Source: Cellvibrio sp. pealriver (GTDB lineage Bacteria > Pseudomonadota > Gammaproteobacteria > Pseudomonadales > Cellvibrionaceae). From it: a stretch of 64,000 nt of DNA. Every line of letters starts with the position of its first letter. The first letter of the stretch is position 1. Shown in pieces: positions 6,266 through 21,591 of this stretch. A program made the translations under genes and the position numbers. The notes under the pieces are model-generated. The model saw only the letters and a list, made by a program, of their open reading frames with translations. It did not search any database and was not told the origin of the DNA. The stretch spans positions 897,149 to 961,148 of the forward strand of contig NZ_KQ236688.1 of the NCBI RefSeq assembly GCF_001183545.1, written 5' to 3'.

Positions 6266-6766
6266 ACAACGCTCTCCTAATTGGTTGTTAATTTTTATAG
6301 TCTTTATCGACTTGTAGTTTTAGCCATATCAAGGTCAAAACGGGTCTTATGGTTGATTTGAAGGTAAGGCCGGGTTATTAGAGTTCAGTTTCCGCTCTTG
6401 CCTTGCGCAAGTATCATCTGCTCACTTTATTTGAATGTCAAACATTAATTGTTAACAAAATGAATAACCTTCCGTCGAAGCGATGTGGCAGCGGTATGAC
6501 AGTGACGAGAGCGGCTATTAGCTGCGCATAGGGTTGGTAGTGTTGTGAAAAGTTAATATTTAACTGTAAAGTGTTAACAAAGCTATGTTAATGCAAAAAA
6601 TATCGGTGTAAGATTTTATTTCTGCTACTGGCACGGCTTCACTAGCAGGGCCTTGGTTTTGTGCTGAACAGAATCATCTTGGTCGACTATTCATAACAAT
6701 AATATGTTTTTCAGTTTTTCTGTTTTTTCCAATAACGATAATTATCATTTCATCAAAGAGGCAATT
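6266..6766. promoter_or_regulatory. divergent promoter region between receptor and agarase
   Basis: About 500 bases without a gene, holding the promoters of both divergent transcription units. TGTTAACAAA occurs twice (6450-6459 and 6572-6581) and could be an operator. Near the agarase start, GATAATTATC (6737-6746) lies in a Fur-box-like context, matching the 19-bp Fur consensus at about 14 positions by eye. No clear -35/-10 pair stands out. Confidence 0.5.
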
Positions 6767-9700
6767 ATGTTTAAACAACATAAACTCCGCCTTGCTGTTG
6801 CCGCTATTACTACTGGGGTTTTAGGTAGCATGGCGTCTTTAGCATTGGCGCAAAACGTTAAAGTCGATATCAATGCAAATATCAAACACTCAGTTAATGG
6901 AGTGTCTGATTTCGGTCGTGAAAGACGGATCACTATCCACGCAAGCCCAATGGAAAACGATTTCTTGGGAGAGAAAGACAAACTTGATTACTTGATGGAT
7001 CTTGATGTGACCTTTGGTCGTGACAACGGCCTGTCTATGTATTACTTCAGTCAAACCGGTGGCGACAAGGCTCGCTCCACCGATTCACCCAGCCCGTTTC
7101 CTTATGGGTACGCCAACAAACCCAATTTGGCGCAATTGAGTACACTCTCAACCGAATATAAACAGAATTTAGATACAAAGTACGCTGACGCTCAAGAGTA
7201 TTTTGGACGAACATCTTCATTAATTATGGGTTCGCAACCAAGACCGGCTTATCCGAACTGGAGTTCATACTCATGGTTCGGTGGCGGTCTAACCAGTGAA
7301 ACGCCATGGCGCCCCCGCACAGCTCAAGACGCGGCAGACTGGTACGCCGAATTTTTAAATAAATTTTTTGTGCAGTATGAAAATGACCCTACGGCTATAC
7401 CTATGCCCAAGTATTGGGAAGTGGTCAACGAGCCGGATATGTTGATGAATGTACCGAGTCACGAGGGGCATTTATCAACATGGGAAGAACTATTTGAATT
7501 TCACAATGTGGTTGCCGATACCGTGCGTTCAAAACTCGGCAACAAAGCCCCCAAAATTGGCGGTATGACTTGGGGTCTGCACGACTTGGAAAAAGGCGAT
7601 GCAACAGCGACAGGTTCACCGCGCAATCGTGGTGATGCGTTATTAAACTTGTTCTATGGCAATGACGCGGGCAGCGAGGCGATCAAAAATGCCATCCGCA
7701 CCAACCTTTTCAATAAATCACCAACAATGTCAGCAAACGGACCCAGCCCCAGTGCCGACTGGTATCAATGGGACGTGATATGGAAAGGCTTCATGGACGC
7801 TGCCGGCGAAAACATGGATTTCTATTCAGTCCATTTATATGACTGGGCATCATGGAATGGAGGCACAACACGTACCGGCGCTTTGCGTACTGGTTTCCAA
7901 ACCGAAGGTGTAATAGATCTATTGGAATGGTACGACACCAAAATGCTCGGCCAACGCAAAGAAGTGGTGATGTCTGAGTACGGCAATATCACCGGTACCG
8001 ATATTACCAAGCTGGATCGTCAACGTATGCGTTGGGAAGTGTTAAAACCCTTCTCACAAATGATGATGCAGTTTATGGAGCGCCCGGACTACATCACCTT
8101 GTCCATGCCGTTTATTGTGGTTAAAGGTGAATGGGGCGATGTAGACAAAAATAATCCTTATGGCCAAAGTCTGCTGGATCGCGATTACTCCACCTGTACT
8201 GAAACTCCCACTGCTTATACCAATTGCACCTGGAATTTTAACCCCTCTATCAAATGGTACGAGCTCTGGCGCGATGTGGACGGCACTCGTGTAGATACTT
8301 ACGCCAGTGACCGGGACATTCAAGTGGACGCCTATGTCAATGGCAAAAACATGTATGTCATTCTGAACAGCTTGGAAGCTCAGGCAACCACTGTTGATAT
8401 GAACTTCGCTGGTATCAGCGGTAATGCCATCAAGAGCATCAAGATGCGTCATCTCTATTTGGATGAAGCAATTGATGACGATAACAACCCTGCCAACGGT
8501 GTAGGCAAACCGATTCTGGCCGATGCGACCCTTAACAGTCTGCCCAAAAACATCACCATCGGTGCTGATGCGACTGTCATTTTGGATATTGAGTACACCA
8601 ACAACCTGAATCCAACTCTCAACAGCAAAGAGAAGAAATACCCGGCAGAACCCTTAACAGCAAATGCGCCTTATAGGGTATCGGCAGCGAATGTAAATGC
8701 ACAGGTAAATGGCGTGCCTAAACCCGCTAAAGGTGAGGCACAGCTGAGAGTTACAGGTGCGTTCTTCATGAATGGCGGCATAGCAACGGGTTCTTCAGAT
8801 AGCCGAGTGTCACTCAAAATTAACGGCAACACTGTGCCTGTTAAAACCGATTGGCGTGGAGATGAGTCGAGAAGAAGTGGACGCTCCATGGCAACCCTGG
8901 AGATTCCATTTGATGTGAGTTATTTGAGCGCAAGCGGCAATAACAACATTCAGTTAACGACAATTGCCCAGGGTGAAGTCGCGGCGGTGAGCCTGCAGGT
9001 GTGGGATATGGATACTCAGGTTACCCGTAGTATTCCCGCAGCTTGTAGCCCATGCACGCCCGTTACTGGCTTGAGCCTGAGCCAAACCAGCGTCAGCAAT
9101 CTGTTGGTGACTCAATCGGTAGCGCTTAAACCAAGTGTTAGCCCGGCTAATGCTTCCAACCAAAATGTCACTTGGGCTTCATCTAATCCCAGTGTGGCCA
9201 GTGTTGATCAAAATGGTTTGGTGACCGGTAACAAGCCAGGTTCTGCCACTATCACCGCAAAAACAGTGGACGGTGCATTAACTGCTACGGCTTCGGTATC
9301 CGTCAGCCAGTTGGTGCCTGCTGCAGTTTCTGTGGTTGGTTTGCCTAACCCTCTTTATATAGGCGCGAGCAAACAGCTAAGTGCGGCAGTTACGCCAATT
9401 CATGCCCCTAACCGTAAAGTGACTTGGAGCAGTTCTAATACCACCATTGCAACTGTGGATGCCCAAGGGGTAGTCACTGGCCTTAAGGCGGGCAATGTCA
9501 CCATTACCGCAAAAACGGTCGCTAACAACATAGTAGGCACGGCAAACATTCAAGTGAAAGCCAAGTTGTTGACCGGGATGGCCATATCGCCCGCGAATAC
9601 CTTGATCCCACAAAATGACAGCCTACAAATCCAGACCAGTTTCACTCCGGCTGATGCCAGTGATAAATCGGTCACTTGGACCTCCAGTAATACCGCAGTC

Positions 9701-11281
9701 GCGACTGTAAGTACTACCGGATTGGTGAAAGGTGTTGGGTTGGGTGTGGCCGAGATTACCGGGCGCAGTAACGACGGTGGCTTTAGCGGTAAAACCCAAG
9801 TGGAAGTTGTTGCCTCCAATACCACACTGACCTACATCGAAGCCGAAGCCTTTAATCGCACCGGCGGAGCCTATGGCGGTTTTGTGAAAAGCACTACTGG
9901 TGCTGGCAATATCAACGACAACCAAACCGGCGACTGGGTGGAGTTTGATATTAACTTTGCGCAGGCGGGTATTTATCAATTGGTATTGGCAACCGGTACA
10001 CCTCTGGATGGTGCGGGTGTGGAGTTCCTGGTGGATGGTATTTCCAATGGCCGCTCCTCCTTGCCCAACAATGGCAATTGGGATCAGCACGTGACTACGG
10101 TAGTGACCAATGGTCTGCAGATTAACTCTGCAGGTACTCATACGCTACGCTTGATCAGTGTGGGAGCTGGCGGTGCGTATCAGTGGAATCTGGATAAGAT
10201 TGGCTATCGTATTTTGAAAGCAACGACTGGTGGTGCATCGTCAATTGCTGCATCGATACCAGCATCTTCTTCACGTTCATCAACGCCGCTGTCATCTTCA
10301 TCGCGTTCATCTACACCACTGTCATCGTCATTGCCGTCTTCGGCTCCATTGAGTTCATCATCGCGCTCATCCACATCTGTATCTTCAAGCTCGTCGGTTG
10401 CATCCAGTGTGGCAACGGGTGGCTTGAAGTTGGTGTTGGAGGCTGAAGCATATACCGCGACGGGCGGTGTCTATCAAGGCTTCCAAAAATACACACCGGC
10501 AGCTGGAGTAGGGGCTATTAACTACAATCAACGTGGCGATTGGGCCGATTACACCTTGAATGTCACCAGTGCGGGCACCTATAGCATTGATGCCTTCCTG
10601 GGTACCACACAAGACGGTGGTGCTATAGAGGTGTTGATTGACGGTGTGTCAGTCGCGAAAAAAACCGTTGCCAATAACAACAATTGGGATGTGTTTGCCA
10701 AGTTAGTGGTAGCGAGTGGCGTGCAATTAAGTGCCGGTACACACAGTGTGCGCATTATCTCGGCGGGCACTACCGCATCGACTTGGGAATGGAATGCAGA
10801 TCGCATTGAGTTCACTCAAGTGGCAGTCGCTACTCCTTCCTCTTCATCGCGCGCTTCAAGTTCGGCGCCAGCGGCAGTACCGGTAGTGATGCAGGCTGAG
10901 TCGTACATCGCAACTGGCGGAACCTATCAGGGCTTCCAAAAGTACACCACTGCGGCGGGAGTAGGTGCTATTAACTACAACCAAACCGGTGACTGGGCGG
11001 ACTACAGCATCAATGTGACTGCAACTGCTAACTATCGTATCAATGCTTATCTCGGCACCACCCAAACTGGTGGCGCTATTGAGGTGTTGGTGGATGGTGT
11101 GTCAGTGGCGAAAAAGACTGTGCCCAACAATAACAATTGGGATGTTTTTGCCTTGCTGGAAGTTAGCAGCAGTGTTCAGCTTAGTCAGGGAGCTCACACG
11201 TTGCGCATCATTTCTGCTGGCGCTAGCAGTTCAACCTGGGAGTGGAATGCAGATCGCATTGAGTTTATCCCAGTAAATTAA
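6767..11281 (+). CDS. GH86-type beta-agarase/porphyranase with Ig-like and CBM6 domains
   Basis: 1,504 residues from the ATG at 6767, chosen because AAGAGG sits five bases upstream and a normal signal peptide (ending ALAQ) follows. The order is: GH86-like catalytic region (about 35-640, with the family-typical FGRDNG near residue 88); three Big_2-type Ig-like repeats (about 766-1015); CBM6 (about 1022-1150); a Ser-rich linker (about 1156-1218); CBM6 (1223-1350); a short Ser linker; CBM6 (1375-1504). Glu222 in NEPD and Glu404 in MSEYGN are the likely acid/base and nucleophile. The last two CBM6 modules are close duplicates. GH86 enzymes cleave agarose or porphyran; CBM6 modules in Saccharophagus agarases bind agarose chain ends. 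It is secreted. The exact substrate cannot be told from sequence. Confidence 0.85.
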   Translation: MFKQHKLRLAVAAITTGVLGSMASLALAQNVKVDINANIKHSVNGVSDFGRERRITIHASPMENDFLGEKDKLDYLMDLDVTFGRDNGLSMYYFSQTGGDKARSTDSPSPFPYGYANKPNLAQLSTLSTEYKQNLDTKYADAQEYFGRTSSLIMGSQPRPAYPNWSSYSWFGGGLTSETPWRPRTAQDAADWYAEFLNKFFVQYENDPTAIPMPKYWEVVNEPDMLMNVPSHEGHLSTWEELFEFHNVVADTVRSKLGNKAPKIGGMTWGLHDLEKGDATATGSPRNRGDALLNLFYGNDAGSEAIKNAIRTNLFNKSPTMSANGPSPSADWYQWDVIWKGFMDAAGENMDFYSVHLYDWASWNGGTTRTGALRTGFQTEGVIDLLEWYDTKMLGQRKEVVMSEYGNITGTDITKLDRQRMRWEVLKPFSQMMMQFMERPDYITLSMPFIVVKGEWGDVDKNNPYGQSLLDRDYSTCTETPTAYTNCTWNFNPSIKWYELWRDVDGTRVDTYASDRDIQVDAYVNGKNMYVILNSLEAQATTVDMNFAGISGNAIKSIKMRHLYLDEAIDDDNNPANGVGKPILADATLNSLPKNITIGADATVILDIEYTNNLNPTLNSKEKKYPAEPLTANAPYRVSAANVNAQVNGVPKPAKGEAQLRVTGAFFMNGGIATGSSDSRVSLKINGNTVPVKTDWRGDESRRSGRSMATLEIPFDVSYLSASGNNNIQLTTIAQGEVAAVSLQVWDMDTQVTRSIPAACSPCTPVTGLSLSQTSVSNLLVTQSVALKPSVSPANASNQNVTWASSNPSVASVDQNGLVTGNKPGSATITAKTVDGALTATASVSVSQLVPAAVSVVGLPNPLYIGASKQLSAAVTPIHAPNRKVTWSSSNTTIATVDAQGVVTGLKAGNVTITAKTVANNIVGTANIQVKAKLLTGMAISPANTLIPQNDSLQIQTSFTPADASDKSVTWTSSNTAVATVSTTGLVKGVGLGVAEITGRSNDGGFSGKTQVEVVASNTTLTYIEAEAFNRTGGAYGGFVKSTTGAGNINDNQTGDWVEFDINFAQAGIYQLVLATGTPLDGAGVEFLVDGISNGRSSLPNNGNWDQHVTTVVTNGLQINSAGTHTLRLISVGAGGAYQWNLDKIGYRILKATTGGASSIAASIPASSSRSSTPLSSSSRSSTPLSSSLPSSAPLSSSSRSSTSVSSSSSVASSVATGGLKLVLEAEAYTATGGVYQGFQKYTPAAGVGAINYNQRGDWADYTLNVTSAGTYSIDAFLGTTQDGGAIEVLIDGVSVAKKTVANNNNWDVFAKLVVASGVQLSAGTHSVRIISAGTTASTWEWNADRIEFTQVAVATPSSSSRASSSAPAAVPVVMQAESYIATGGTYQGFQKYTTAAGVGAINYNQTGDWADYSINVTATANYRINAYLGTTQTGGAIEVLVDGVSVAKKTVPNNNNWDVFALLEVSSSVQLSQGAHTLRIISAGASSSTWEWNADRIEFIPVN
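10441..11270 (+). repeat. tandem duplicated CBM6-encoding segments
   Basis: Segments at about 10441-10815 and 10888-11270 encode near-identical CBM6 modules (shared YQGFQKYT, GVGAINYNQ, NNNNWDVFA, STWEWNADRIEF). The serine-linker coding tracts before each are rich in TCATCTTCA-like repeats. Recent internal duplication is likely. Confidence 0.8.
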
Positions 11282-11333: not shown

Positions 11334-11453
11334 TTTTTTTATGGTGCAGAGATTCTTACGATTTTAGTAAGCGCATTCATTTATCAAATGATTCTATTTT
11401 GGTGCCTCCGCAACTGTTGCTGATTTCGTCACTTTTGTCAGCGTTGCACTGTT

Positions 11454-11726
11454 GCTCCGCAAAATATCTTCCTTGTGCTCATCAGCCTGTGCATCAAATT
11501 GACCCCAAAACCGCCGCACAGGCCACATTATTTGTGCTTGGAAAAGCAGCACAAATAATATGAAAGTGGCGAGTTTTCTGGAGCACAAAGAAGATATTTT
11601 GCGGACAAAACAATGTGTGAATAATGTGTAAAAGGGCTATTTAAATGTGCCTAAACATGATTTAACTGTGTCAACAATGTGTTAATTCGATTGGCTTGAA
11701 TGTGATTTAAATGTGTCAATAGTGAT
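11454..11726. repeat. left copy of ~265-bp direct repeat with 22-bp unit array
   Basis: Same order and orientation as the copy at 13673-13942. It has an outer inverted pair (CGCAAAATATCTTCCTTGTG near 11459, matched by CACAAAGAAGATATTTTGCG at 11584-11603), a central hairpin (ATTTGTGCT/AGCACAAAT), AATGTGT steps, then degenerate 22-bp units built on ATTTAA(A/C)TGTGTCA at 11639, 11660, 11682 and 11705. The array resembles transposase-binding sites at Tn7/Mu-type transposon ends or iterons; which it is cannot be decided here. Confidence 0.6.
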
Positions 11727-11739
11727 CGCAAAATGCTGT

Positions 11740-12237
11740 TTATTTCGTCGCTGGTGTTCCTATTGACTTTTGCGAGGCCTCTTCCGCGATAACCATCTCA
11801 AACACAGCATCCCGTTCTTCTGAATGTATTGCCATAAGGTCGGGAATCGCCTCCCACAAAACCAAGTCGCCCGAAGCAGGGCAGCATACATAGATATCAG
11901 TGAGTGATTGCCCGAAAGTTTGATAATCACCGCAATGGGGGCAAACAATATTGGCCTCATTCACGGTAATACTGATTGCATGTCTGAGCGCTAGTGAGTC
12001 ACAAGCTGAACCAGGGACGGGAATTGCTGTTATTTTCATGCGGTTTTGCAGATACCTCACTTGGAAAACAGAAAATTCTGGCGATAACGTACCCATTGCC
12101 ATCTCGCACAATGCAAGAAGCCTTGTAATTAAATCAACGTGGCCTGGCATCGGCTTTATGCGACGCGGATTAATCCACGGATGTTTCAGGGAAAGGTTTT
12201 TCAATTTCGTGCGATAAGAAACAGGGGCGTAATTCAT
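11740..12237 (-). CDS. small Cys-rich protein of unknown function
   Basis: 165 residues, not recognised. The middle carries a probable zinc site: CPHC (in NIVCPHCGDY) followed about 20 residues later by a CC pair (VCCPASGD). No signal peptide or membrane segment. The start is supported by AGAGGT seven bases upstream. It is 43 bases downstream of the coiled-coil gene on the same strand, so the two form an operon that is divergent from a controller-like repressor. The whole unit is bracketed by two direct repeats. Function unknown; accessory or defence role is inferred from location only. Confidence 0.6.
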   Translation of the reverse strand: MNYAPVSYRTKLKNLSLKHPWINPRRIKPMPGHVDLITRLLALCEMAMGTLSPEFSVFQVRYLQNRMKITAIPVPGSACDSLALRHAISITVNEANIVCPHCGDYQTFGQSLTDIYVCCPASGDLVLWEAIPDLMAIHSEERDAVFEMVIAEEASQKSIGTPATK

Positions 12238-12280
12238 TTGTATACCTCTTGTTATTTTTTCGGTTAGGCCAATGAAATTT

Positions 12281-13144
12281 TCAATCGCTTTTTGATAACC
12301 CAGTGCGGTGCTCGTTCTTTAGCATCGCCAGAATAAATTCCTGTGTTTGGGGAAGTAGCAGTGCAAAATGGTTGTCTTCGTGCGGCGCTATTTTTATGTC
12401 ATCCGTTAGAACTCTGAAATCGACAGATTTTTTATATTCATCTGCAAACAACTTGCTAAAACTGTGTTCAAGTGCCGGATTTAGCCCCAGAGTTGACTTT
12501 ACCGCCCCTAAAATAGCGTTTATGAAAGTAAGCGCTTTGTTGTAATGCTCCAACTGCTCTTGAAGTTTTAATCGATTTACATCCTTTGTGTGCGTTAAGT
12601 TTTCTATTTGCTCACTGAGCTCTGCCTTTTCTACTAATAGCGAATTTATTCGCTGACTAAATGCTGACGCGTCTCTCTGAAGAGTGGCATTTTCCTGTGT
12701 AAGGCGTTGATGCGTTGCAACTAAGTTATCGATTTTTGCCCGGTAGTGAAGGGTGGATCGCTCGCCTTGAACCAACTGTTCTTCAAGCGCTCGAATTCGA
12801 GCAGTTTGGTTGACCGCTAACTGCCGAAGCTGATCGCGCTCCGTCTCGTAGGTTTTGCAGTTTCGCGCGACTTCTTGTTGATAGGCCGCATGCTGTGCCT
12901 GCAACCTTGCAATCGCTACGTTGGCTTCATCAATCGCCTCATTGTAGCCAGCTGTATGGGTCTCCTGACTCCCCGCGCAGTAACCGTGATGGTGGCCTTC
13001 GGTGTACCCCTGGTTATAACCGTCAGTCAAACCTTGCTGTCTGCCAATGTCTATTCCTTCATTCCGCCCCTCCCTGCGACCTTGCTCCTGCCAAGCCAGC
13101 TGGTCATTACTGATGCCACCCAAAGGTGTGATTGCCGCTCTCAT
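12281..13144 (-). CDS. coiled-coil protein with N-terminal Gly-every-four repeat
   Basis: 287 residues, not recognised as a named family. Residues about 25-70 repeat glycine every four residues (GRREGRNEG, GRQQGLTDGYNQGYTEG, HHHGYCAG), similar to the deca-GX3 pattern of Yae1/Lto1-type proteins and of some defence-island proteins. Residues about 75-215 are a long charged heptad region typical of a coiled coil. The C-terminal 70 residues are globular. No membrane segment. The start is supported by GAGGA seven bases upstream. Two controller-type operator boxes lie in the 157-base gap before the divergent HTH gene, so that repressor probably controls this operon. Confidence 0.65.
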   Translation of the reverse strand: MRAAITPLGGISNDQLAWQEQGRREGRNEGIDIGRQQGLTDGYNQGYTEGHHHGYCAGSQETHTAGYNEAIDEANVAIARLQAQHAAYQQEVARNCKTYETERDQLRQLAVNQTARIRALEEQLVQGERSTLHYRAKIDNLVATHQRLTQENATLQRDASAFSQRINSLLVEKAELSEQIENLTHTKDVNRLKLQEQLEHYNKALTFINAILGAVKSTLGLNPALEHSFSKLFADEYKKSVDFRVLTDDIKIAPHEDNHFALLLPQTQEFILAMLKNEHRTGLSKSD

Positions 13145-13176
13145 AACAATATCCTCGTATTTGCATGGTGAAGGTC

Positions 13177-13239
13177 TTTGTCACTCTTAGTGGTCAATTT
13201 AGCATCGGCTCTCCGAATTGTCACTCATAGTGAGTGAAC
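13177..13239. promoter_or_regulatory. paired operator boxes for controller-like HTH protein
   Basis: Two similar palindromic boxes, TTGTCACTCTTAGTGGTCAA (13178-13197) and TTGTCACTCATAGTGAGTGA (13218-13237), 40 bases apart between divergent genes. ACT(C)(A/T)TAGT centres resemble the C-boxes bound by restriction-modification controller proteins (GACTnATAGTC type). Confidence 0.6.
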
Positions 13240-13301
13240 TTATAGAGAGTGGCCTCATATAGGCTAAGGCAATAGCATCCTGATTTTACTCGGGGTGTTG
13301 C

Positions 13302-13526
13302 ATGGCAGATCCAAAATTACTTTTCGGTCAAAGACTTATACAGTTGAGAAAGCACTTGGGGTGGTCTCAAGAGCGGTTAGCGCTTGAGTCTGGTATCGCA
13401 AGGAGCTATCTAGGCGGAGTGGAGCGCGGTCAGAGGAATATCGCCCTTGTAAATATCCATAAACTTGCGGAAGCCCTGAGCGTTCCGCCATCTTCGCTTC
13501 TAGAGCCCCCAAGCATTAATGACTAG
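13302..13526 (+). CDS. controller-type (C-protein-like) HTH regulator
   Basis: 74 residues, a single XRE-type helix-turn-helix. GQRLIQLRKHLGWSQERLAL, then the recognition stretch SYLGGVERGQRNIALVNIHK, then LAEALSVPPSSLLEP. Length and wording match restriction-modification controller proteins (C.AhdI, C.Esp1396I type), which activate or repress from C-boxes. Matching operator boxes lie directly upstream. No methylase or endonuclease gene accompanies it; the divergent genes are the coiled-coil and Cys-rich proteins. It probably autoregulates and times expression of that operon. HTH identity is secure; the controller comparison is by motif. Confidence 0.8.
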   Translation: MADPKLLFGQRLIQLRKHLGWSQERLALESGIARSYLGGVERGQRNIALVNIHKLAEALSVPPSSLLEPPSIND

Positions 13527-13672
13527 CTTGTTTATGATTGGTGCGTTGCTGACATCGCAAATCTTGTGTCTGTCGCCCTGTTTTTAACTAAGTTCTCAGC
13601 GTACTTTCCCTGATTCCAATTTCACCGTACTAGTTGCCAAAGCCCTTCCTGGTCGCTTATCTGTACCTCCTC

Positions 13673-13942
13673 GTTCGCACGTTATCTTCTTTGTGCCCAA
13701 TCGTCTGTGCTAAAAGGTGGATGCAAAACCGCGCACAGACCACATTCTTTGTGCTTAAAAAGACAGCACAAAGAATATGAGAAAAGCAAATTTTATGGGG
13801 CACAAAGAAGATATTTTGCGAACAAACAGTGTGTGAATAATGTGTCGGACTGTGATTAAAATGTGTGAACAACACGATTTAACTGTGTCATCAATGTGAT
13901 TTAACTGTGTCATCACTACGATTTAAATGTGTCAACAGTTTG
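13673..13942. repeat. right copy of ~265-bp direct repeat with four tandem 22-bp units
   Basis: Cleaner copy of the repeat at 11454-11726. Outer inverted pair at about 13675-13697 and 13799-13822, central perfect hairpin ATTCTTTGTGCT/AGCACAAAGAAT (13744-13775), then four uninterrupted 22-bp units starting at 13855, 13877, 13899 and 13921, each beginning ATT(T/A)AA(A/C)TGTGT(C/G)A. Read on the minus strand the array starts TGTTGACACATTTAAAT, which looks like a transposon tip with ordered transposase sites. No protein-coding gene lies in 13527-14089. Confidence 0.65.
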
Positions 13943-14089: not shown

Positions 14090-14569
14090 GTGTGGTATCG
14101 AGGTGCACTTATGCGCCTTGTGAGCTGGATTGGTGGTAATGACCTTGATGCAGCGGAGGCAAAGACCTATCAGACGGGCGCCGTGGCAGCTACGCTCGCT
14201 AGCGCAACCTTTACGGAGTTGCACCTTCTTTATAGCTACCCAGAAAGGCGGGTTAGCAACTACCTGTCTTGGTTATCGTCGCTGCATGGTATTCCTGTCG
14301 CTAAGCGAAAGGCTGAATCAGCCTCACCTGAAAAAGTTAAATCATTAATAACTAAAAATAATCGTGGCGTTCGTCAGGCAAATATAAGTAACTCCGATAT
14401 TTACGAATTATCAATTCCAATTCCTGAAGCTAGTAAGCTCGCCAAATTTGATGAAGCTGTCGCTAAGGTACAAGCAATGTCAAAGAGTATGCTATTACAA
14501 TGCAGTGAATCGCATGCATTTTTTAAATCATTAAGCCAGCGAGCATTTTCAGGTGATTTACAACTCTAA
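14090..14569 (+). pseudogene. chimeric remnant: CARF/RtcR-like N-part fused to HsdS C-part
   Basis: 159 residues from a GTG; the ATG at 14111 is equally possible. Residues about 10-65 (LVSWIGGNDLDAA...TELHLLYSYPERRVSNYLSWL) read like the first strand-helix units of CARF-type sensor domains found in RtcR-like regulators. Residues about 95-159 (ANISNSDIYELSIPIPE, AKVQAMSKSMLLQ, FFKSLSQRAFSGDL) match the C-terminal helix and tail of type I restriction specificity subunits. Neither half is complete, so this is probably a deletion scar joining two defence genes. It ends 16 bases before the reverse transcriptase gene and may be cotranscribed with it. The HsdS part is more certain than the CARF part. 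Confidence 0.55.
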
Positions 14570-14585: not shown

Positions 14586-17500
14586 ATGCCCTATATTAAC
14601 CCTAGATACGATTGTCTTTTGCTTTTAGATGATTACCTAAAAGACCCGCTTTTGCTTGCATTGGCATGGAAAAAATCTCACGAATATATCCGTTCCATTA
14701 ATTGGTATGCGGACAATTTTGAATTGGATAAGTCGGCGCTCAATCTCGAATTCCTATGCAAAGACTGGAGTGAGGAACTCAGCGGTGATATAAATTTTTC
14801 TCCACTTAAATTGGTTCCGGCACCAAAGACATCTGCTTGGGGGTTTTCGCAGAATAAATGCCCTAGCGGATTAGAAATGCTCGATTTGTCATTGGATGAA
14901 ATTGAGGAAAATTGTTATTGCGTAAAGTGGGCTCCCACAGAGCCAGACAAAATAAAACTACGCCCCCTCGCACACATAGGCGTCAAAGAGCAAACTTATC
15001 TAACGCTGGTGATGATGTGTTTGGCTAATGATGTAGAAACATTGCAAGGTGATCCGGCAACGGATTATAAGGAGGTTCACGACAAGAAAGTGGTTAGTTA
15101 TGGTAATCGCCTATATTGCACCTATACCGAGGATGGTTGCGCGGAACACAACTTTGGTGCAACAACAATTTATGGAAAATATTTCACTGATTATCGTAAA
15201 TTCTTGCAGCGTCCCTATCATTTTGCATCTAAAACCCTTGCAGAAATATCTTCTGATGAAGAAGTTTACTTGGTTGAGCTGGATCTAACGCAATTCTTTG
15301 ATTTGGTTAACCGAGAAAAGCTGGTTCAAAAAATCACTGAGCTTTCTGAAGAACACGGTGAATCAGAAAGTAACCGACGGTGTTTAGCAAGCCTTCTTAA
15401 GGCTTTTAAGGGGTGGGAGTGGTCAGAAAACACGACAGATACATATGAAGTCTGTGAGACTGAGTATGTTCCAGCACCGCCTAAGGGATTGCCGCAAGGG
15501 TTGGTTGCCGCAGGTTTTCTGTCAAATATTTACATGCTTGATTTTGATAGCTTCTTATCGAAGTTAGTCGGAAAAAGAATAACGATTGACGAGTCAGAAA
15601 TTGAACTAAAATTGGTTGATTATTGCCGCTATGTTGACGACATGCGGCTCGTTGTGATTGGCCCAAGCCGAGAAAAAAATGGAGGAGAAAGTCCTATTCC
15701 AGAAATAAAGATTCTATTGAAGAAATTTCTGGAGCCTGAGCTTGCTGAATTTAATTTAAAATTAAATATCGATAAAACTAAAGTTGAAATCTATCGGGGA
15801 AAGTCGAAAGGAATTTCTGCAACTTTGGAGGATATTCAAACTCGGGGTAGCGGGCCGGTATCCTACGAGGATGCTGATGAGCTTATTGGTCAGTTGGAAT
15901 CATTGCTGATGTTGTCTGGCGGGAGCGGTGAAGATCTAGATCAGAATATCGGTGGCTGTCGAATTAATCGCTTAGCTCTCATCGAAAATAACGTCTTTGA
16001 TGTCAGAGAAGACACATTGAAGCGATTTGCAGCGAATAAGTTATCCAGAATGCTTAACAATATTCGTCACTTTACCTCTCGTGATGTTGATGAAAGCGGC
16101 AATTCAGTGGCTGGCGACTGGGATTATTTGCAGGAGCGTATAGCAAGGCGTTTGGTTGCCTGCTGGTCACATGACCCCGCTTTAGTGTTATTGCTCAAGA
16201 AAGGCTTAGAATTATTCCCATCACCAAAATTGCTCGGGCCGGTTATAGAGCAACTTGAATATGTTTTGAACAAATCAGAATCTTCCGATATTCAACAGCG
16301 AAAACAGAGTGCTGTGGCCCGCTACTGTTTGGCAGAAGTGTTCCGGCATTCTGCCATGATCATTCACCGAAAAGACCCTCAATCAATACCCGCCCATGCA
16401 GATATTGACGGTTATTTTGAGCGTTTACAGGATTGCGCTGCGAGACTTATTGACTTAGCAGTGGGAGCAAAAGCTAAGTCAGATAAAGCTGTCAAAGTCA
16501 GTGATAGAGCTTCCGGTCAACCCGATTTCGACTTGCTTATTGATCAGGCTCGATTTCTGCTTATGACAAGACTGGATACGGTATTAGAACGACCATGTGG
16601 TAATGAAGATCAAGATTTAATATTCAAGCTTGCCAAAGGATTTCGACATATTGTCATAAGTCCAAAGAAGACTACTCGAAGTATTGCGACCTGCATCTTG
16701 ATTGCAAATCAACTTATTTCTGATCAAAAGCCACTGCTTCGTGCTGTAAGTTCCTTATTGGATCTAAATGATGGAAAAGTGAAAAGAATTATTGAAAAAA
16801 TTGCCTTGCAAGACCCGCGACTAGTAAAAGCAATTTTTTTACATGCGCGACCTTTGTCGTACGCTTGGTATAAAAAACGTAAAAATAAGTTCATCAAAGA
16901 TATTTCAGATAAGCTCTATATTTTTGTAAGGCCATCAGCCAAGCCACTATCAGAAATAAGTGAACCAGTTGCTCTATATAAGTTAAGCTGTAGATCAGAT
17001 AACCCATTTTCCAATGAGATCGTTGCGCTCAAGTTAATGCTTTCGCTAATTGACAAATCAACTGACTTTAATTCTATTTCTAAAGAAAAAATTATTGATC
17101 TGAGTCGTACAAAAGTAGAACTGTTAAGAACGGATGAGGTTATTGGCTTCTCCATTCCTCCCTCCTATGAAACATTCGATGCAAGGTTTGACATTAAAGA
17201 CATTAAGTTCTGCGAGTCTCTACAAGGTTTGTCTGTTCACCTTCTTGAAAGCGATTCTGATTCATCGATTTTGCAGAAAATTGCATTAGCAATGCGCGCA
17301 TTGTTATCGGGGTCTTCTGATCCTACTGGCTTCGGTCAATCATTTACACCTCGACCAGGATATCGTGGCATCAAGTCCACCAGCTTTAAGCGCCAGTTTG
17401 GGATGATGACAACGCCAGAGTCATTGGTAGGTGAAAATGCTCAATTTTCTGGATGGCTTACAACGCTATTGGCAAAGTTGCTTAGGTGGCCAGGCATTCA

Positions 17501-18545
17501 TGTGAATGATCAGGGGTTCGACTGGCCAATCGCACTAACGCTTGCGGCAGTTAAAAAACTTATCGAAGACCGGTTAGTGATTTTGAAGAAAAGCTATTGC
17601 CAGTTATCGAAAATGCCTGGCTTGCCGGAACTCATTACGCCAAAGTGGGATGAAGGCAAGAGATCACTAACTGTTGCGATGGTTCAATCAAAACTACCTT
17701 TTAAAAGTGATTTTTCGAGCGAAGGAATTTATTTGGATACACCTCAATATAGGGTGAGGCATCGTCGCCATGTTGCGCGCGTTGCACAGCTTATTATAAA
17801 GCATATAGAAGCACAGTCAGTGGAACTACGAAATAATGGAAAGCGTGAACAAGATATTGATCTGATTGTTTGGCCCGAGCTTTCGGTTCACCGCGATGAT
17901 ATCGATATTTTGGTTCAGCTCTCTCGAAAAACTAAGGCTATTATTTTTGCCGGGCTTGGTTTTATAAATCAGACGGGCATTAAAGGGCCTAACAATTGCG
18001 CTGTATGGATAGTGCCACGCAAGCATGGAGGTAATTCAAATGAAGTTATTCGTTATCAAGGAAAGTTTCACATGATGGAAGGCGAGCGGAAAATTAATAT
18101 TCAACCGTGGCGCCCTTATCAATTAATGTTGGAATTAAAACACCCAAAATTCAAAGATAAGCCAGGGTTCATGCTAACGGGTTCGATTTGTTTTGATGCA
18201 ACAGATATTTGCTTGAGTGCAGACTTAAGGGATAAATCAAATGCTTTTATCGTTTCAGCTCTCAATCGTGACGTAAGCTCATTTGATACTATGGTAGAAG
18301 CACTTCATTACCACATGTATCAACCTGTGATATTGGTGAACACTGGAGAGTTTGGTGGTTCTTACGCAATGGCTCCTTACAAGGAGCAGTATAAGCGGCT
18401 TATCGCACACTCCACTGGCAACAATCAGGTAGCCATCAATACTTTCGAAATGAATATGTTTGATTTTAGAAGAGATGGCGTTGGGAAAAGTATGGCTTCA
18501 GGCGATGAAACTAAAACTCCTCCTGCGGGTATTCCTTATAAATAG
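14586..18545 (+). CDS. drt1: DRT1 (UG1) antiphage reverse transcriptase-nitrilase fusion
   Basis: 1,319 residues. The N-terminal third is a reverse transcriptase of the unknown-group type: ELDLTQFFD (231-239, first catalytic Asp233), [14 protein letters not shown] (301-314) and the catalytic YVDD (349-352), followed by [14 protein letters not shown] helical middle region of about 600 residues follows. The C-terminal 295 residues form a carbon-nitrogen hydrolase (nitrilase) domain with the triad in order: Glu1098 (WPELSV), Lys1160 (GKFHMMEGE), Cys1202 (GSICFDATD). This RT plus nitrilase architecture defines class 1 defence-associated reverse transcriptases (DRT1/UG1), which protect against phages. 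All catalytic residues are present, so it appears intact. Neighbours (HsdS remnant, DUF262-HNH protein, integrase) fit a defence island. The detailed mechanism is not deducible here. Confidence 0.9.
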
Positions 18546-18589
18546 AAAAATATGTTCTTCAAAATCAACATTTTAACAGGAACGTGTCT

Positions 18590-20386
18590 GTGTCTTCTCA
18601 AAAATATTCCGTAAATCAGCACCTTATTGAAACGCTCCTGAGCTGGGTTAAATCTGGCGAGATTGCCATTCCTGAAATTCAGCGCCCCTTTGTGTGGGAT
18701 GCATCCAAGGTGCGTGATTTAATGGATAGTCTGTACCAAGGCTTCCCGGTGGGTTACATCATCGCTTGGCGCAACCCAACAGTGAAGTTAAAAGACGGTA
18801 CCTTGGCGGAAGGTAAAAAAGTATTGATTGACGGCCAGCAGCGCGTAACTGCCTTGACAGCTGCGATTGCCGGGCAGCAGGTGGTGAATAAGGATTACAA
18901 ACAGATCCGAATTCGTATTGCGTTTAATCCGGTGGATGAACGCTTTGAGGTTTGTAACCCTGCGATTGAGAAGGACAAAGCTTGGTTCAGCGATATTGCG
19001 CCCATCGTCAGTGGCGAACAAAAATCTCACAAAGTCGCGCGCGACTATTTGGCGCTAAACCCGGATGTGAATGAAGATCTGGTTTATGAGCGCTTGGATC
19101 GCCTTTGCGACATCATTAAAAAACAAATTGGTTTAATTGAGTTGGCACCGGATCTGGATATAGAAACGGTAACGGAAATTTTTATTCGTATTAATTCCAA
19201 AGGTGTTGTGCTCAGCCAAGCGGATTTCGCGATGTCTAAAATCGCCGCCAATGAAGATTTTGATGGTAACAGTCTACGCAAAGCCATTGATTATTTCTGT
19301 CATTTGGCCGTTGCGCCCGAGTTTTACACACAGATAGAAGCCAACGATACTGAGTTTGTAAAAACCGATTATTTTTCGGCGATGCGCTGGCTGCGAAACG
19401 AGAACGATGACCTCTATGACCCCAGCTATTCAGACATGCTGCGCGTTGCATTTACCACACGCTTTAATCGCGGGCGACTATCTGATTTGGTAGGTTTGTT
19501 GTCTGGCCGTAATTTTGAAACCCGCACTTATGAAAAATCGATTGAAGAAAACTCATTCAAACTGCTAGGCGAGGGAGTACGTGAGTTTATTAACGAAACT
19601 AACTTCAAGCGTTTTTTAATGATCATTCGCTCTGCCGGTTTTGTAGATCCAGGCATGATCCAATCTACCAACGCCTTAAACTTTGCTTACATTCTTTACC
19701 TAAAGCTCAAGCGCGATTTGGGCAACAATCCGAATATTGAACGCTGGGTGCGTCGTTGGTTTGTGATGTCGCTACTCACTGGCCGCTATTCGGGCTCACC
19801 GGAGTCCCAATTCGATAAAGATATTCGGGCAGTTCATGACACACCTTTCGCAGATCATTTAGCGGCAGTTGAATCAGCGGAATTGTCCGATGCTTTCTGG
19901 CAAATTGGTTTGGTGCAAAATCTGGAGACCAGTGTGGTAAATTCGCCTGCATTAAAAGTGTTCTGGGCGGCGCAGTCTTACTTGAATGAAAAAGGCTTCT
20001 TGAGCAAGGATATCACCGTTCGCGACATGCTCGTTCACCATGGCGATGTTCACCACATATTCCCCAAAAACTTCCTTAAAGGGCGCGGCCTGAGTAAAGC
20101 CAAATACAATCAAGTCGCCAACTACGTTATGGTGCAACAGGAGGTGAATATTAAAATCGGCGACCGCTCACCAATCGATTACATGAAAGACGTATTGGAT
20201 CAATGCTCCACCGGTACCTGCAAGTTTGGTGCAATCGATAACCAGGAGTTGCTACGCAAGAACCTTCAGGAAAACTGCTTGCCTGAATCCCTCAGTGATT
20301 ATGAATACGATAATTTTGAGAGCTTTCTTCTAACCCGCCGTAAGAAAATGGCGGAGAAGGTAAGAGGGTATTATTTTTCGCTTTAG
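18590..20386 (+). CDS. DUF262/HNH protein, GmrSD-like restriction factor
   Basis: About 598 residues. Two GTG starts are possible (18584, 18590); 18590 has better spacing to AGGA at 18578. The N-terminal DUF262 domain shows [11 protein letters not shown] (about residues 27-37) and [11 protein letters not shown] (about 79-89), the ParB-like nucleotide-binding DGQQR core. Near the C-terminus [11 protein letters not shown] (about 486-496), followed by N-x5-Y, is an HNH-type nuclease motif like that of DUF1524. The pairing matches the GmrSD type IV family that cuts modified phage DNA using NTP hydrolysis. It starts 45 bases after the DRT1 gene on the same strand. Whether it acts with DRT1 or independently is unknown. 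Confidence 0.85.
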
Positions 20387-20431: not shown

Positions 20432-21409
20432 CTAATACGCAAATAAATGATTTGGTGTATTAGTGGCAATGTTTTTGATGGGGCGAGAGGCGGAGACGAT
20501 GATGTGGCTAGTGTCGCCGCGTTGTTGAGAGTGGTGTCCATAGCGTTTCCGAGTCTTGTTGGTGGCGTGACCGAGAGCTCTACTTACGTCTTCGCCGCTG
20601 TGTGTTTTCTTTAAATCAGATGCAAACTGATGGCGAAAGCAATACGCTGTGATAGATTCATGGTGCGCTGGCCAGACTTCTTTACCCATTCGTCTAATTT
20701 CTACTGTGAAATTAACAGCTTTGTTTATAGAAACAGTAATTGCTTGTCGCGGGTTTGGAATCTCCTTTATTAATTCATGCAGCAATTCATTACTCGAAGT
20801 GACGGGGTAGCTTATTGTTCTGAAAGGTTGGCCTTTGTTTTCGTCAACTTTTCCACCCTCAATTTGAAAGTTAACGTGGTTATCGCTCATATAGACTCTT
20901 ATGCCTTTTACAAGTTCGCATGGCCTGCATCCGGTTAACGCAGCGGTAAGAAGTGGTATCCTGTACATGGAACTTGGGTTGTAGCTAATAAGCAGCTCTC
21001 GCCAATTCTTTGGTAGTTTGTGAAGGGCGGTTTTTTTTGATTTTTTCTTATCGAATTCTAAGTCGAAGTCTGATGCATCGAAATTTGCAATATGTTGTAA
21101 GTCATCGAAAAGCGAATAAGCATCTTCACAATATAAAGTGTCAGATGAAAGCTCATAAAGTTGCAGATTCCGCTCAATTTTATCGCACAAATAGAACGTT
21201 ATTCCATTTTGCCACTTGTAAAACGTGTTGCTTGTTTTTGCTTTAGTGAGTACATCTACTATTGTTTGATCCATCTTTTTTCTTTTGATTAATCTTTCTC
21301 CTGTCTTGTAGTAGTCTGCAAGGGTTTCCTCGCTTGCATTACAGAAATGCGCTTTGATGTCGTGGATAGCGTTAAGAGCATCGAAGTCATATTTAATTAT
21401 GTATTTCAT
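20432..21409 (-). CDS. tyrosine recombinase (integrase)
   Basis: 325 residues from the ATG that overlaps the stop of the AlpA-like gene (ATGA). The C-terminal catalytic domain has Arg162 (TGCRPCEL), the second-arginine box YCFRHQF (Arg259), LGHAT (His281) and the nucleophile Tyr290 (KRYGHH), so the active site is complete. The N-terminal half is divergent and has no clear SAM-like motif. It converges on the DUF262 gene, with 45 bases between the stops. Probably the integrase of the island carrying the DRT1/DUF262 genes; no tRNA or clear att repeat was found beside it. Confidence 0.85.
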   Translation of the reverse strand: MKYIIKYDFDALNAIHDIKAHFCNASEETLADYYKTGERLIKRKKMDQTIVDVLTKAKTSNTFYKWQNGITFYLCDKIERNLQLYELSSDTLYCEDAYSLFDDLQHIANFDASDFDLEFDKKKSKKTALHKLPKNWRELLISYNPSSMYRIPLLTAALTGCRPCELVKGIRVYMSDNHVNFQIEGGKVDENKGQPFRTISYPVTSSNELLHELIKEIPNPRQAITVSINKAVNFTVEIRRMGKEVWPAHHESITAYCFRHQFASDLKKTHSGEDVSRALGHATNKTRKRYGHHSQQRGDTSHIIVSASRPIKNIATNTPNHLFAY

Positions 21410-21591
21410 TTTTTTTGCTCCTTCGATTTGAGTTCGATCCATTGTTCGAGTTCACTTTCGTTAAACACGTTTATGCCAGCAGTCAGCTTAATCGGTCGAG
21501 GAAAACTTAGGTCAGCGCGCATTATTCGATAGAGGCTTGCCCTGCTAACTGATAATTTTTTACAAGCATCGTTGAATTTTATGAGATTCAT
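21406..21591 (-). CDS. AlpA-like excisionase/regulator
   Basis: 61 residues from the ATG at 21591, preceded by AAGGTG. MNLIKFNDACKKLSVSRASL is followed by YRIMRADLSFPRPIKLT and a C-terminal SELEQWIE, the MerR-like winged helix pattern of AlpA proteins. These act as excisionases or integrase activators in prophages and islands. Its stop overlaps the integrase start by the ATGA arrangement, so the two are translationally coupled. Confidence 0.8.
   Translation of the reverse strand: MNLIKFNDACKKLSVSRASLYRIMRADLSFPRPIKLTAGINVFNESELEQWIELKSKEQKK

Follow-up and report, generated by a model that had tools for sequence, protein, structure and literature searches.

The 64,000-nt window analysed here (G000:C2:897149-961148; coordinates below are window positions unless stated) comes from the 4.43 Mb genome of Cellvibrio sp. 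pealriver and contains a compact three-gene unit, consisting of a small Cys-rich protein, a coiled-coil protein (the coil) and a divergent regulator that resembles the controller (C) proteins of restriction-modification (R-M) systems, placed between two direct repeats of foldable DNA (Table 1). We tentatively favour, without giving it quite an even chance, a reading of the unit as a mobile-element DNA-site module that is timed by its C protein, serves maintenance or exchange, and accompanies defence genes as cargo. C-protein control holds back expression when genes first enter a new cell; here the regulator would bind paired operators and time the divergent coil-small operon, which would come on after such an entry and then probably limit itself. 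The small protein, of zinc type and elsewhere fused to an AAA+ motor, would act with the coil on the adjacent cruciform and phased iteron-like sites, and the nucleoprotein complex at this cis site would serve the maintenance of the element or the exchange of its cargo, the neighbouring defence genes. A DNA-acting module is suggested because the foldable DNA is conserved and the sites are phased; maintenance or exchange of mobile DNA because the proteins have plasmid kin, because a related unit (in genome G027) lies near a RepA_C gene (∼ 3 kb from the hairpin) and an integrase, and because cargo switches at the array in one plasmid pair. It is still an open question how defence systems come to be assembled and exchanged side by side. 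A way to test this would be offered by a regulated DNA site found repeatedly at the borders of different defence cargos, both chromosomal and on plasmids of other bacterial families; the module would also unite several nameless protein families (N-domain and coil) in a single system. In the open-licence PubMed Central literature we found no paper that appears to describe it.

ORF (open reading frame) calls and Pfam bear out the three genes described in the initial annotation, and the two direct repeats said to bracket them are present, with sites after each. Each repeat opens with a nested palindrome that had been missed, an outer stem with two inner hairpins forming a three-way junction of ∼ 155 nt; the two copies are identical at 118 of 155 positions (76%). 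Fold z-scores are -8.4 for the left copy (DNA) and -8.1 for the right copy (RNA), with 0 of 200 shuffles as good in either. The hairpin claims rest on these z-scores and on that of a plasmid cruciform described below because raw fold energies failed to separate the test loci from GC-rich controls, in a run whose loading of DNA parameters was unverified. Among 70 tiles of the window, tile 13500 had the best period and the lowest fold energy, and tile 10800 the third-lowest energy. Between the window and G027 the hairpin is kept about as well as the genes: 114 of 154 positions are identical, against 44 of 77 in the adjoining spacer and, in nucleotides, 652/864 for the coil, 374/483 for the small protein and 151/225 for the regulator. 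Changes within the hairpin comprise three pairs of G-U type and three of C-A type and show no strand preference, as expected of DNA (the numbers are small). A hairpin model (R1) built from four Cellvibrio-type copies matches both strands and, under strict filters, recovers among 144 genomes of the family only its source copies, two in the window's own genome and one each in G027 and G026, with 0 in the remaining 141. Rfam (E up to 1) matched neither hairpin, the hairpin pattern was absent from viral_contigs and the left repeat was absent from plasmids.

Beyond the hairpins, the motif GATTWAAMTGTGT occurs exactly six times in the window, always within the two arrays (11659, 11704, 13854, 13876, 13898 and 13920); the pattern was derived from these same sites, and with up to two mismatches it has 13 sites where 8.2 are expected. 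The 22-bp arrays originally described at both repeats hold for the right copy; at the left copy the spacing is irregular, and in G027 the sites are 32 and 33 bp apart. All these spacings (22; 21 and 45; 32 and 33 bp) are near whole DNA turns. A strict test for a 20-23-bp period scored 0.82 for the right copy, 1.00 for G026, and 1.00 and 0.64 for the plasmids pWP2-S18-CRE-03_1 (pWP2) and p12CC3. Among the marks of an iteron plasmid replicon, phased direct repeats of 17-22 bp are found in the right copy (22 bp, four times), the left copy and G027 being irregular, and an initiator gene beside the iterons is absent from the unit. Exact DnaA boxes number 1, 2, 1 and 3 in four Cellvibrio-type stretches, where 0.13-0.22 are expected. 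The intergenic stretch at locus L027 that has a 21-bp tandem array of 11 near-identical copies (1128-1358) next to the hairpin also contains exact DnaA boxes.

The regulator has C.AhdI as its closest solved relative (Table 1). Like C.AhdI and other controllers of type II R-M systems it is short, belongs to the HTH_3 family and has paired predicted operators in a divergent promoter region. GTCACTCWTAGTG, a pattern written from its own two sites, is exact in the window only at 13180 and 13220 and occurs with up to two mismatches at four sites (1.6 expected). The divergent controller-like regulator with matching operators is borne out as a sequence prediction. This promoter region is 115/157 identical in G027, with long conserved blocks across both operators, and the regulators share 59 of 74 residues. 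According to an excerpt of PMC12255303, C proteins promote expression at low and repress it at high concentration, and regulate restriction genes. The unit differs from type II R-M systems in the genes under control: neither the coil nor the small protein is a recognizable restriction enzyme or methyltransferase, and a linked, C-controlled endonuclease and methyltransferase are absent. Nor do the two proteins carry restriction or toxin-antitoxin domains in Pfam, PADLOC, NCBIfam or PHROGs or belong to a known toxin or antitoxin family, as a type II toxin-antitoxin system would, and the regulator scores 38.2 bits against the Y4mF-family antitoxin model, below its cut-off of 71.65. The initial expectation of a self-contained, apparently autoregulated unit of C-protein type in an accessory region finds support in the sequence, whereas its identity as a restriction or toxin-antitoxin module does not. 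RptR regulators of type I R-M islands are alike in combining a small regulator with direct repeats beside R-M genes (PMC12255303, in excerpt). An RptR operator was rejected for the array, since RptR repeats are given in the same excerpt as 9-bp TTTAGCTAA, against the 22-bp units found here.

The small protein had been thought to belong to no family. It is in fact homologous to the N-domain of AAA+ proteins. Fifty-five database proteins, the window's own included, make up its family, and among the 144 family genomes four match (own, G027, G026 and G028). It shares 79% identity with its G027 counterpart (the coil, 70%). In G026 and G028, by contrast to a stand-alone protein, the first part of an AAA+ protein of 533 or 540 aa aligns with its residues 6-112 and 10-109 (Pfam AAA, 2.5e-11 and 1.4e-10). 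Searched against 3423 ORFs, the small-family profile found these two and the AAA+ proteins of p12CC3 and pWP2-S18-CRE-03_1 (E 4.8e-12, 2.2e-11, 7.5e-6 and 3.5e-5). Because of these matches and the common HxW, PGH and CPxCG positions, we regard the small protein as a stand-alone N-domain of Lon-like AAA+ proteins. Its Cys pattern resembles a zinc ribbon and suggests that it may bind metal. Comparison by sequence with solved structures gave nothing below E 0.18, the AlphaFold model is poor (predicted local distance difference test, pLDDT, 49), and our own scan of plasmids found no small protein. Alignments of the coil and small proteins look mosaic, with two distinct coil N-termini joined to otherwise similar bodies, which suggests recombination.

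The coil does have glycines at every fourth residue of its N-terminus, as first described, and AlphaFold2 predicts a single long helix (mean pLDDT at least 90 per block over residues 71-190). The database holds 51 such proteins including the window's own, and a wider profile reaches at least 126 (120 listed). Two of the 144 family genomes have a strong match; at E 1e-3 there are 11, nine being short matches of 30-39%, and among 369 genomes of the class the only match at E 1e-10 is the coil's own. Scans of genome_contigs, viral_contigs and phages for the coil and small proteins gave none, those of genome_contigs being weak negatives because no genome was returned although a Cellvibrio sp. QJXJ homologue exists in the protein database. 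That the coil matches no known family remains true as far as restriction and toxin-antitoxin domains are concerned, but it has kin on plasmids. Apart from these, its matches are weak and of coiled-coil type (PADLOC LmuB, 2.8e-5; PHROG SbcC-like, 2e-5), also when compared by sequence with solved structures. An assignment as FliH-like stator or export regulator was rejected (best score 32.6 bits, curated FliH cut-off 192).

The plasmid relatives of the coil are 25-30% identical and align over the N-terminal glycine region; those from Pseudomonas, Xanthomonas and Bordetella plasmids align over the C-terminal region too. Five of the 11 plasmids with such kin were inspected. Four (Xanthomonas, Pseudomonas, Bordetella and Aeromonas) carry a DotA/TraY gene within 5 kb of the coil gene. 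Their coils have the glycine-rich N-terminus and the coil seen here, and three of the four aligned keep the C-terminal region; they differ in identity (25-27%), in having another partner gene and in that the 22-bp array was not found there. The partner gene was rejected as a counterpart of the small protein (A6 vs A1, hhalign probability 0.2). In the fifth, a Deefgea plasmid, a helix-turn-helix (HTH) gene is divergent from a short coil, with a replication gene and a KfrA_N gene within ∼ 4 kb. KfrA and KfrC are likewise plasmid-borne proteins of long α-helices, and an excerpt of PMC8124265 reports that KfrC of RA3 links partition and transfer. The window's coil lacks the KfrA_N domain (Pfam), and its likeness to KfrC is one of description, not alignment.

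The window, G027, G026 and a plasmid family, each with an N-domain protein, show one recurring arrangement: a regulator (or regulator-like) gene, then a cruciform, then 21/22-bp or otherwise phased sites. Going outward from the regulator, the hairpin precedes the sites in the right copy of the window, in G027 and in G026, whose array has 11 copies of a 21-bp unit. The plasmids pWP2 and p12CC3 have a cruciform of ∼ 300 nt (z -7.6 in pWP2) and, beyond it, a 22-bp array; the array has 11.6 copies in pWP2 and is degenerate, at 2.2 copies, in p12CC3. The divergent promoters of G026 and both plasmids have TTACTATAA and TTATAGT blocks in common, and the regulator-like gene of G026 matches HTH_3 below the cut-off (0.0031). 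The Lon-like AAA+ loci of these plasmids and of K. quasipneumoniae CP055012 share with the unit the homologous N-domain, the divergent regulator-like gene, the cruciform and the 22-bp array, and differ from it in their AAA+ domain, which the unit lacks, and in the sequence of the cruciform. Seven AAA+ loci without the N-domain (L067-L073) have no comparable array beside the AAA+ gene; 21-bp tandem repeats in one of them, L070, lie inside an annotated relaxase gene. The inverted-repeat scan covered six of these seven, and the period and fold controls for three genome AAA+ loci were single 1-kb pieces, roughly placed.

Defence genes are found on the array side in five of the six settings in which the array flank is in view, the three plasmids being one family and not independent. 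Where context is visible, the homologues thus do not sit mostly outside accessory regions. Besides the window (Table 1), these are G027, with a DrmD-like helicase and a type IIG/DrmMI-like methylase (DISARM/type IIG-like), pWP2 (HTH, SLFN/AlbA_2 protein, HsdM and HsdR), p12CC3 (HTH and HsdR) and CP055012 (HTH, HsdR, TrlF-type ATPase, HsdS and HsdM). In the sixth setting, G026, a WYL regulator precedes the contig end; G028 is cut on the array side and was not counted. pWP2 and p12CC3 are 97.6% identical over 14.9 kb on the AAA side, beginning within the array; on the other side they are 85% identical over 377 bp and then carry different restriction genes, which have in common only two patches of 158-170 bp at 69-73%. 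Two Aeromonas plasmids have the restriction side of pWP2 (94% over 3.9 kb). From this pattern of similarity, the array is the parting point of backbone and cargo in this plasmid group. Five further records, namely two Aeromonas plasmids, one plasmid each from Klebsiella and E. coli (the latter IncY-typed) and an E. coli chromosome, combine type I R-M genes with parts of the plasmid module (HTH with array or cruciform) in one region. All five were retrieved through their similarity to this one plasmid family, and in both E. coli records IS1 and other genes intervene. The plasmid similarity search gave 62 records, of which A. veronii, A. media, K. quasipneumoniae AP022145 and E. coli LT883139 were inspected besides the plasmids already described; many of the others match ∼ 114 bp of the array only. 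At 74% identity, this segment (L064 10622-10735, query 393-506) is found in dozens of plasmid records from enterobacteria. A small HTH gene lies between the array and the restriction genes in the plasmid family (L063 10257-10466, HTH_17; L064 10036-10242) and weakly matches the recombination directionality factor RdfS (E 0.0035).

Several observations weigh against the reading as a mobile-element DNA-site module. The unit itself contains no gene for replication, partition or recombination, and all 11 plasmids with coil kin are typed as non-mobilizable (MOB-suite). Covariation lends the hairpin weak support, with compensation at 4 of 43 pairs and a covariation term of +0.75. In the period test the left copy (0.55) and G027 (0.50) are at background, AAA-only stretches scoring 0.41-0.61 with the top one near that of p12CC3, and the DnaA boxes of the Cellvibrio-type loci number 0 in two plasmids. 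The plasmid regulator-like gene (245 aa) has no Pfam match, its kinship to the G026 HTH protein being judged by position and by eye, and the cruciform of the plasmids resembles the Cellvibrio-type hairpin in position and type but not in sequence, because the R1 model finds none in the plasmid loci. RepA of G027 has no match in the window's own genome (in a search without positive control), and pWP2 has its own RepE. Most homologues are on metagenome contigs with their neighbours out of view, so that context means the six settings above. The unit corresponds in full to none of the known systems compared, and its function, as we infer it, is that of the module set out at the start.

The foremost competitor, which we nevertheless consider unlikely, makes the unit an anti-phage system in its own right, of a kind not yet described: the regulator would time an effector formed by the coil and small proteins (or the AAA+ protein), with the hairpin-iteron DNA serving as sensor or regulatory site. 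The defence genes on the array side and the regulation of restriction genes by C proteins (PMC12255303, in excerpt) would agree with this, but no effector domain is recognised in the four domain collections, and the coil kin adjoin DotA/TraY genes; four regions of ∼ 10.6 kb that were inspected have no annotated restriction gene, and one has a RelE/ParE-type toxin gene. Quite unlikely, in our judgement, is a new class of cargo-exchange platform, in which the cruciform and iteron site, with its own C-protein-timed zinc/AAA+ or zinc/coil proteins, would both mark and promote a junction where entire defence systems are exchanged between plasmids and genomic islands. A decaying relic of a plasmid backbone, carried in a genomic island with no present function, is improbable: the irregular left array, the adjoining HsdS-like fragment and strong matches in only two of the 144 family genomes could be read that way, but none of the three ORFs is disrupted, and G027 conserves them together with the operators.

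We give slim prospects to the repeats being termini of a transposon-like or cassette element. They bracket the unit, and the distance from the end of chromosomal homology to the left one is 22-34 bp for two relatives and 113 bp for a third, but they are direct and 76% alike, with two copies in the genome, where transposon ends would be inverted termini with dispersed copies, and the unit holds no transposase (Pfam). An element end at the cruciform arm, apparent in two Aeromonas plasmids, was rejected as a diverged cruciform followed by Tn3-type DNA. On copy number and orientation, a generic mobile border, as initially proposed, or a miniature inverted-repeat transposable element was likewise rejected, and the two copies diverge from each other about as much as from the single copy of G027. 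Least probable of all is a structured RNA with its protein (type III toxin-antitoxin or retron-like), the hairpin-array being its transcript, which the strong fold, the short tandem repeats and the nearby DRT1 might suggest but which is opposed by a model matching both strands, by changes without strand bias, by the Rfam result, and by the module in G027 and plasmids with no reverse transcriptase among the neighbours seen.

Table 1. Features of the unit and its right-hand neighbours in the window.
Feature	Position	Strand	Basis and remarks
Left hairpin copy (w1)	11453-11608	+	Arms 11456-11480/11581-11605 96% complementary; model match (model built from w1)
Left iteron-like sites	11638-11716	+	11638 (2 mismatches), 11659, 11704; spacing 21 and 45 bp
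Small Cys-rich protein, 165 aa, CPxCG...CC motif	11740-12237	-	ORF call, homologues, profile search
Coiled-coil protein, 287 aa, GxxxG N-terminus, conserved C-terminal region	12281-13144	-	ORF call, alignments
Predicted operators GTCACTCTTAGTG and GTCACTCATAGTG plus AGTGAACTTATAGAGAGTG	13180-13251	.	Stretch conserved in G027
C-protein-like HTH_3 regulator, 74 aa	13302-13526	+	Pfam HTH_3 2.7e-14; PADLOC Control_protein 2.3e-22; C.AhdI 1.3e-17
Right hairpin copy (w2)	13671-13825	+	Fold z, model match
Right iteron-like array	13849-13942	+	Four exact sites 13854-13932, spacing 22 bp
Chimeric-looking short ORF, fragment	14090-14569	+	N-half like RtcR-family CARF region, C-half like HsdS
DRT1 reverse transcriptase-nitrilase, defence; adjoins right repeat	14586-18545	+	Drt1a, 1365 bits (PADLOC)
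GmrSD_N-type protein, after DRT1	18584-20386	+	Pfam, PADLOC
Weak tyrosine integrase match	20432-21442	-	Pfam 6.6e-4, below cut-off

On the left, chromosomal homology to three relatives stops at 11431, 11419 and 11340, ahead of the left repeat, and the edge agrees with an island border. Because each of the three carries other DNA there, the site looks like a hotspot; this interval (11340-11431) comes after a large gene (6704-11281). Only one relative, G018, has close copies of both flanking genes, and an empty-site test there found the two apart. An HD-domain-like gene (L026 11164-11583; Pfam HD_4, just below the cut-off) lies immediately downstream of the G027 unit. Lipoprotein-like genes with a similar-looking start, as judged by eye, are found near the N-domain AAA+ or coil gene at three loci (L027 4125-4787, L028 2168-2812 and L021 2251-3078), close to dnaE-type or umuDC genes.

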